Shown: piece after piece, positions 31,119-31,366 of the stretch | Layout of the letters: the number at the start of each line of letters is the position of its first letter | How positions within the stretch are numbered: position 1 is the stretch's first letter | Assembly (NCBI GenBank): GCA_004138175.2 | Contig: RYFE02000031.1 | Span: 1 to 64,000, forward strand | Length of the DNA stretch: 64,000 nucleotides | From: Chloroflexales bacterium ZM16-3 | GTDB lineage: Bacteria; Chloroflexota; Chloroflexia; Chloroflexales; Chloroflexaceae | Reading direction: 5' to 3' | Notes under the pieces: generated by a model | Seen by the model: only the letters and a program-made list of their open reading frames with translations | The model's database searches: none | Told to the model about the DNA's origin: nothing | Program-made: the position numbers and the translations under genes

Positions 31119-31366
31119 AAAAAGCCCCCACCGATATGCGATGAGGGCGTACGTATGCACGTTTATGGCTCGACAAGACGTCTTCAGCCTGCCTCTCATC
31201 TTCCAGATAGTCTGCCGGAATTGCCACCATACTGAAATGATTGCAGATTGTAGATTGCAGATTGCGGATTGTTCTGAAACAATCTGCAATCTGCAATCTG
31301 CAATCTGCAATAACCCAGTGGTTGGCGCGGTATCGTCGGGCCGGTCCCTCCACCGCTCTGGATGAG
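31119..31366 (-). promoter_or_regulatory. SAM-I riboswitch with terminator platform, upstream of metY-metX
   Basis: Read on the minus strand. P1 pairs CTCATC (31361-31366) with GATGAG (31195-31200). The core has GGTGGAGGGACCGGCCC, then CCAACC, and a 3' GGTGGCAATTCC; GCC/GGC replaces the usual GGC/GCC pair, a compensated change. P4 is CAGA-CTA-TCTG. The platform is a 9-bp terminator (31124-31132 with 31140-31148) followed by T5. The 3' strand of P1 can instead pair with CTCATC of the terminator, an antiterminator. This is a classical off-switch: SAM binding causes termination. An inverted GATTGCA array (31238-31312) extends P3. Confidence 0.92.
31238..31312. repeat. (GATTGCA)n palindrome inside the riboswitch P3
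   Basis: Three to four heptamers and their complements around a TCAG loop form one long stem. ACTG/CAGT at its base continues into riboswitch helix P3, so the array lengthens P3 without breaking the conserved core. Confidence 0.85.

Follow-up and report, generated by a model that had tools for sequence, protein, structure and literature searches.

The metY-metX leader carries a SAM-I riboswitch

The window, i.e. the whole stretch of 64,000 nucleotides that was analysed, belongs to the 6.27-Mb draft genome (hereafter G000; 127 contigs) of Chloroflexales bacterium ZM16-3, a filamentous green bacterium related to Oscillochloris. On the minus strand of the window, a riboswitch is located upstream of the methionine genes metY and metX (Table 1). 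A cmscan search against RF00162 gave a match at 31368..31193 of this strand with 73.5 bits (gathering score 44.4) and an E-value of 2.5e-15, which covers all 108 model positions (1-108), 78 positions of the P3 loop being omitted in the printed alignment. The SAM-I aptamer core that an earlier, sequence-only reading of this DNA had recognised was therefore recovered over the whole model and with a long insert in P3, and the identity of the element as a SAM-I riboswitch is confirmed as far as its sequence can tell. The minimum free energy structure obtained by unconstrained folding of the aptamer RNA contains P1, P2, the array-bearing P3 and P4, and thus represents the canonical four-helix junction. 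Its energy was -85.6 kcal/mol with a z-value of -8.95, which is mostly due to the array. All conclusions on folding rest on the sense strand.

Table 1. Features of the metY-metX leader region. The metY and metX genes were assigned with NCBIfam.
Feature	Position	Strand	Basis
metX, homoserine O-acetyltransferase	28612..29757	-	NF001209, 504 bits (cut-off 331)
metY, O-acetylhomoserine sulfhydrylase	29804..31087	-	TIGR01326, 695 bits (cut-off 495.1)
Putative intrinsic terminator, GCCCTCATCG-CATAT-CGGTGGGGGC then TTTTT	31124..31148	-	terminator-like sequence
SAM-I riboswitch aptamer (RF00162)	31193..31368	-	73.5 bits and fold
Aptamer P1	31368-31361 / 31200-31193	-	covariance model and fold
Aptamer P2	31356-31327	-	covariance model and fold
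Aptamer P4	about 31218-31203	-	covariance model and fold
Basal P3, 5' strand GCCA-A-CCACTG	31316..31326	-	covariance model and fold
Basal P3, 3' strand CAGT-AT-GGTGGC (compensated C-G versus the model's G-C)	31223..31234	-	covariance model and congener leaders
Array 5' arm, GATTGCA units	31280..31311	-	sequence
Apical loop TCAG (UCAG in RNA) of the array hairpin	31274..31277	-	fold
Array 3' arm, TGCAATC units with two substitutions giving A.C mismatches in RNA	31239..31273	-	sequence and fold
Promoter-like site TTGACA-17-TACTAT, extended -10 TG	31398..31426	-	consensus match only

The basal part of P3 displays a two-sided change, GCCA/UGGC here versus gGCA/UGCc in the model. This change is common to the metY leaders of the congeners G004, G003 and G002, and the 5' strand of the basal P3 is near-invariant across G000 and these three genomes. 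The compensated GCC/GGC swap that had been reported in the core is thus real, but it is positioned below the array and supports the basal P3, not the array.

A terminator-like hairpin, GCCCTCATCGCATATCGGTGGGGGC-TTTTT, is present at 31148-31124 of the minus strand (consensus match only), and the aligned metY leaders show that it is conserved in the congeners. The 3' strand of P1, GATGAGAGGC (31200-31191), is able to pair with the 5' strand of the terminator, GCCCTCATC, which would constitute an antiterminator; a fold starting from the P1 3' strand forms this pairing, which is also conserved in the congeners. The terminator/antiterminator platform previously proposed upstream of metY-metX is supported by this sequence evidence, in the form of a predicted terminator and a possible competing antiterminator. 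From what is known about the family, SAM would stabilise P1, upon which the terminator would be freed and metY-metX switched off. The leader is thus predicted to be a transcription-attenuating SAM-I riboswitch controlling metY-metX, with ligand binding and switching as expected properties.

A heptamer array extends P3

The GATTGCA array is located at 31239-31312, spanning about 75 nt within P3 of the metY riboswitch. Its units are flanked by the intact basal P3 strands within the aptamer match, which agrees with the earlier view that the array is confined to P3. The inverted heptamers fold into one hairpin of ~34 bp. The idea of one long hairpin continuing P3 was therefore right as to the single hairpin, but the array does not continue P3 as a perfect stack: between it and the basal P3 (GCCA-A-CCACUG / CAGU-AU-GGUGGC) lies a small internal loop with weak pairing, GGUU/CAUUU, and the array includes two A.C mismatches in the sense RNA. 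These mismatches are the two positions that differ from G004.

P3 arrays recur in other SAM-I riboswitches

G000 has two further SAM-I riboswitches, which precede metH-like and mtnA-like genes (identified by eye from their translations) and carry the P3 heptamers GATTGYA and TGAATGC. Arrays of heptamers in P3 were thus found in all three SAM-I riboswitches of G000, in all three of its closest relative G004 (units GATTGCA, GATTGTA and TTGAATG), and in at least two of the three of a third congener. The P3 arms of G003 hold degraded arrays of other heptamer units and those of G001 A+T-rich heptamers, and the one intact SAM-I riboswitch of G005 has a short two-unit hairpin in P3. The sequence-only reading had described a single case of a repeat entering a riboswitch. 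While the metY array is real, it is not the only one, since P3 arrays, with other units, are also present in the riboswitches of metH and mtnA and in those of congeners. In the metY leader of G005 (L041, contig C365), the aptamer is truncated: P2 and the beginning of P3 are directly followed by the terminator, an arrangement that would result from deletion of P3, P4 and the P1 3' strand and that may reflect either a true loss or an assembly error.

The survey of Chloroflexales comprised 70 long P3 arms (at least 40 nt, with P3 taken from the covariance-model coordinates). Of these, 12 arms from four genera had a period-7 score of at least 12/14, and none of the 70 reached 12/14 for periods 4-6 or 8-12. 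Core letters (GCGGCAACC and the like) at the start of some P3 strings were trimmed before these statistics. Strong period 7 was observed in 9 of the 14 long arms of this genus and in 3 of the 56 of others (genera g11, g12 and g14). Outside P3, no strong period 7 was detectable in 116 riboswitches, the best score being 9/14. Rfam scans of ~555 kb of G000 revealed only two SAM-I riboswitches, four tRNAs and a weak CRISPR repeat; because the RNAs within the genome were too few to serve as a control, cobalamin riboswitches and RNase P RNAs were used instead. In the genus, neither 12 cobalamin riboswitches nor five RNase P RNAs had heptamer arrays in their interior. Altogether, a repeat process that acts across the genome seems to be tolerated at the P3 arm.

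Some further arrays deserve mention. A 14/14 heptamer run of the GATTGCA type, starting at about 1651 of L292 (G005), adjoins a cobalamin riboswitch just outside the aptamer. Heptamer-like P3 arrays in other genera are found at L235 (G059), L213 (G015), L092 (G016) and L094 (G028), of which the one at L235, from another family of the order, is weaker; this distribution suggests several origins.

Heptamer repeats across the genome

Besides P3, the window contains GATTGCA arrays at 12198-12285 (also inverted) and 50567-50592, and the tandem 14-mer with at most 2 mismatches has 17 matches in the window compared to 0.33 expected by chance. Larger-scale sampling of repeats covered 855 kb of G000 and 400 kb of G004. 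The 855 kb of G000 contain 196 exact tandem runs of period 7, as compared to 1-40 runs for each of the periods 2-6, 8-13 and 15; period 14 is mostly a harmonic of 7. The commonest unit in G000 is AATCTGC/GCAGATT, i.e. GATTGCA, and GATTGCAGATTGCA has 370 exact matches in the G000 genome, where its reversed control has none. All 15 close inverted GATTGCA pairs in the G000 sample, which include the P3 arrays of metY and metH themselves, are oriented as GATTGCA...TGCAATC, their loops measuring 2-42 nt. The array had been taken for a plain intergenic repeat elsewhere in the genome. The repeat is indeed found elsewhere, but outside P3 it is often the same inverted hairpin and not a plain tandem.

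Heptamer arrays of a G+C-rich kind (TTGGGGG/CCCAACC and similar) are also present in the window, at 1-35, 9268-9322, 13410-13489, 19856-19896, 52932-52999, 54340-54371, 63570-63640 and 63725-63757. Several of these are neighbours in opposite orientations, and no units of this kind were seen in P3. A class-wide scan for the pattern CAACC-N-GATTG was far too unspecific to be informative. Heptamer arrays were rarer between convergent genes, where they occupied 3 of 61 intergenic regions compared to 47 of 274 elsewhere (p-value of 0.016; crude gene calls on G000 contigs C1 and C40 and the window).

Hairpins turn over at fixed places

MetY of the window is 98.6% identical to MetY of G004, 95.8% to that of G003, 94.1% to that of G005 and 92.3% to that of G002. 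Alignment of the metY leaders shows a core with hardly any variation and a P3 apex that is unrelated between G000/G004, G003 and G002: this apex consists of GATTGCA units in G000 and G004, of a degraded array of another heptamer in G003, and of a G+C-rich non-heptamer hairpin in G002. The occupancy of P3 by arrays (3/3 in G000, 3/3 in G004, degraded in G003 and 0/3 in G002) correlates with the genome-wide heptamer load, which amounts to 22, 21, 5 (84 kb) and 0 (217 kb) period-7 runs per 100 kb, respectively. Thus, G002 shows no heptamers in the 217 kb sampled and no P3 array in its three SAM-I riboswitches. G005 has 19 such runs per 100 kb, in only 36 kb. Counts of GATTGCA x3 were 144 in G000, 522 in G004, 6 in G003, 0 in G002 and 107 in G005.

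The leader alignment bears on the earlier proposal that a repeat was inserted into a structured RNA, to which an ancient presence of heptamers in P3 had been named as the counter-argument. That counter-argument is half borne out, as P3 of G003 holds a different, degraded heptamer array and P3 of G002 a non-heptamer hairpin. Given the array of G003, heptamers may have occupied the metY P3 before its current GATTGCA unit. An array does reside in P3, but a single insertion event is not established.

The fate of hairpins was also followed in intergenic regions of G000:C1 (L236-L255) and G004:C1 (L294-L313), with crude gene calls that represent the longest open frames. The two contigs are largely syntenic, with ~84-86% identity. 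For 24 intergenic arrays of G000, the corresponding place was mapped in G004. Some of these places have the same unit there, others carry a hairpin of another heptamer, several hold a palindrome that is not built of heptamers, and one region corresponds to a short gap (12-22 nt). Strong hairpins were present in both genomes in 25 of 80 mapped intergenic regions, in one only in 17 and in neither in 38 (Fisher p-value of 2e-7). The result was similar when other thresholds were applied or a minimum length was required, and composition-shuffled G000 sequence yielded no strong hairpins. By a simple local-alignment criterion, the hairpins at shared sites were unrelated in sequence in 20 of the 25 cases. 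Part of this joint presence could be due to terminators being required in both genomes. P3 behaves like the intergenic hairpin sites, in that the place persists and the sequence is exchanged. A more general principle, that hairpins of this lineage persist by position with wholesale exchange of their sequences, and that a DNA-level rebuilding acts on intergenic sites and riboswitch P3 alike, re-making the arm from the current genomic heptamer, is an idea that we regard as rather doubtful.

Origin and role of the array

The P3 apex of SAM-I riboswitches points away from the SAM pocket. Because of this distance, a self-pairing hairpin can be folded away as an extra-long P3 and leave the core undisturbed. 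In our opinion, the array is probably a passenger that turns over fast and is tolerated by a riboswitch that works. Such arrays would be supplied by the heptamer process of the lineage, a process at the DNA level that may involve copy insertion, in-place growth or exchange between sites. They would arise and turn over by slippage of 7-nt units, template switching or element exchange would keep their arms inverted, and they would be tolerated in P3 and not selected for a function of their own.

As to the mutational route, it is possible, and we entertain this tentatively, that the P3 stem itself seeds the array, with slippage and template switching on the existing hairpin lengthening it in place and no mobile element being involved. 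P3 alone among the helices is used and its basal part is intact. Moreover, some arms look uniform internally yet differ from the opposite arm, such as those of the G004 metH riboswitch, where GATTGTA makes up the 5' arm and GATTGCA the 3' arm, and template switching is a published route by which inverted arms of RNA hairpins are made and repaired (PMC8794818). However, both GATTGCA and TGAATGC, as found in P3, are also frequent units in the rest of the genome, which growth from the P3 sequence alone would not predict. Independent homogenisation of the arms by slippage was also considered, but it was not established, as overall the similarity within arms did not exceed the pairing between arms; this also speaks against in-place growth.

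Alternatively, the array could be a small mobile hairpin that was inserted at P3, which is conceivable though somewhat doubtful. The unit, the polarity and the similar ends (ATTGCAG ... CTGCAAT) match other genomic copies, and the array-bearing G000 region that corresponds to the gap of 12-22 nt in G004 would fit such an insertion. When G000 and G004 were compared for empty sites of a MITE/REP-like element, this one region was a short gap in G004 and most sites held another hairpin. The copies have no common loop, their loops and copy numbers differ, and many different units behave alike, all of which argues against one mobile element.

If the RNA hairpin were selected, G.U would be favoured over A.C at imperfect positions and the sense strand would fold better than its complement. 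The RNA strand was the more stable one in 39 of 53 non-heptamer long P3 arms (p-value of 0.0008), whereas this bias was absent from the heptamer P3 arms (7 of 17, p-value of 0.63). This is a hint that the heptamer arms are neutral, from a test that is weak and leaves room for selection because the P3 sequences are related by ancestry and the heptamer arms number 17. A functional long P3, in which the hairpin would tune co-transcriptional timing, RNA stability or processing (e.g. as a site for a double-strand-specific RNase) and any heptamer unit would suffice, is in our view unlikely. It would agree with the strand bias of the non-heptamer arms and with the occurrence of long arms in much of the order even without heptamers, many of them 40-100 nt in length. 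Furthermore, the metY array differs at only two positions between G000 and G004 in genomes that are ~84-86% identical, and this near-identity could mean constraint, which counts against a passenger. On the other hand, it is the heptamer arms that lack the bias, P3 arms are short in Chloroflexus-like genomes and 42-53 nt long in G002, arm length and unit vary freely among orthologues, and the same hairpins occupy many intergenic places outside riboswitches. Lastly, an assembly artefact or misplaced repeat contig, as might be feared in a draft genome of many contigs and repeat copies, can practically be dismissed, because the separate assembly of the congener G004 has the same array in the same place and the two other SAM-I loci of G000 show the same pattern.

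Comparison with known systems

The metY leader shares with the SAM-I (S-box) riboswitches of RF00162 the core sequence, the four helices, the met gene context and the terminator/antiterminator platform, and it differs from them in that the P3 apex is replaced by an inverted heptamer array of about 75 nt. Repeats in a structured RNA have a precedent in cyanobacteria, where the STRR in RNase P RNA are reportedly heptamers. The G000 repeats share with the STRR a 7-nt tandem unit and many genomic copies, a resemblance of unit length and behaviour only. The STRR of heterocyst-forming cyanobacteria, which reportedly occur within RNase P RNA (Vioque 1997, Nucleic Acids Res 25:3471, cited in PMC4046671 and PMC2858038), likewise represent a genome-wide class of short tandem repeats located in the gene of a structured RNA. 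The phylum and the RNA are different, however, and in the present case the arrays are inverted, the units change between species and three riboswitches of one genome are concerned.

Over-abundant intergenic 7-nt repeats have been described in Xanthomonas and Nostoc, and at a given intergenic site those of Xanthomonas differ in length and sequence from one close relative to another (PMC4692102); the text of that paper mentions no riboswitch. The over-abundant intergenic TAACTGA repeats of Beggiatoaceae (PMC4679880) are mainly direct, whereas the arrays described here are inverted. Long non-conserved stem-loops are known to be tolerated as variable insertions at specific sites of riboswitches with the core undisturbed (Barrick and Breaker 2007, PMC2258182). 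Repeats inside structured RNA, hairpin insertions at fixed riboswitch sites and site-conserved, sequence-variable heptamers are therefore already known. Our limited literature search retrieved no report of recurrence in P3 with exchange of units in several SAM-I riboswitches, and nothing on tandem repeats in Oscillochloris or on such inserts in SAM-I. Compared to the published variable insertions, the source of the insertion is identifiable here as the genome's own heptamer repeats, so that a riboswitch 'variable insertion' is tied to a genomic source. The orthologous leaders form a natural series of no array, one unit, another unit and a degraded array, with cores that hardly change. With this series, one can ask how RNA helices become longer during evolution and whether repeat processes acting on DNA are their source, a problem posed by the work on template switching in RNA hairpins (PMC8794818).
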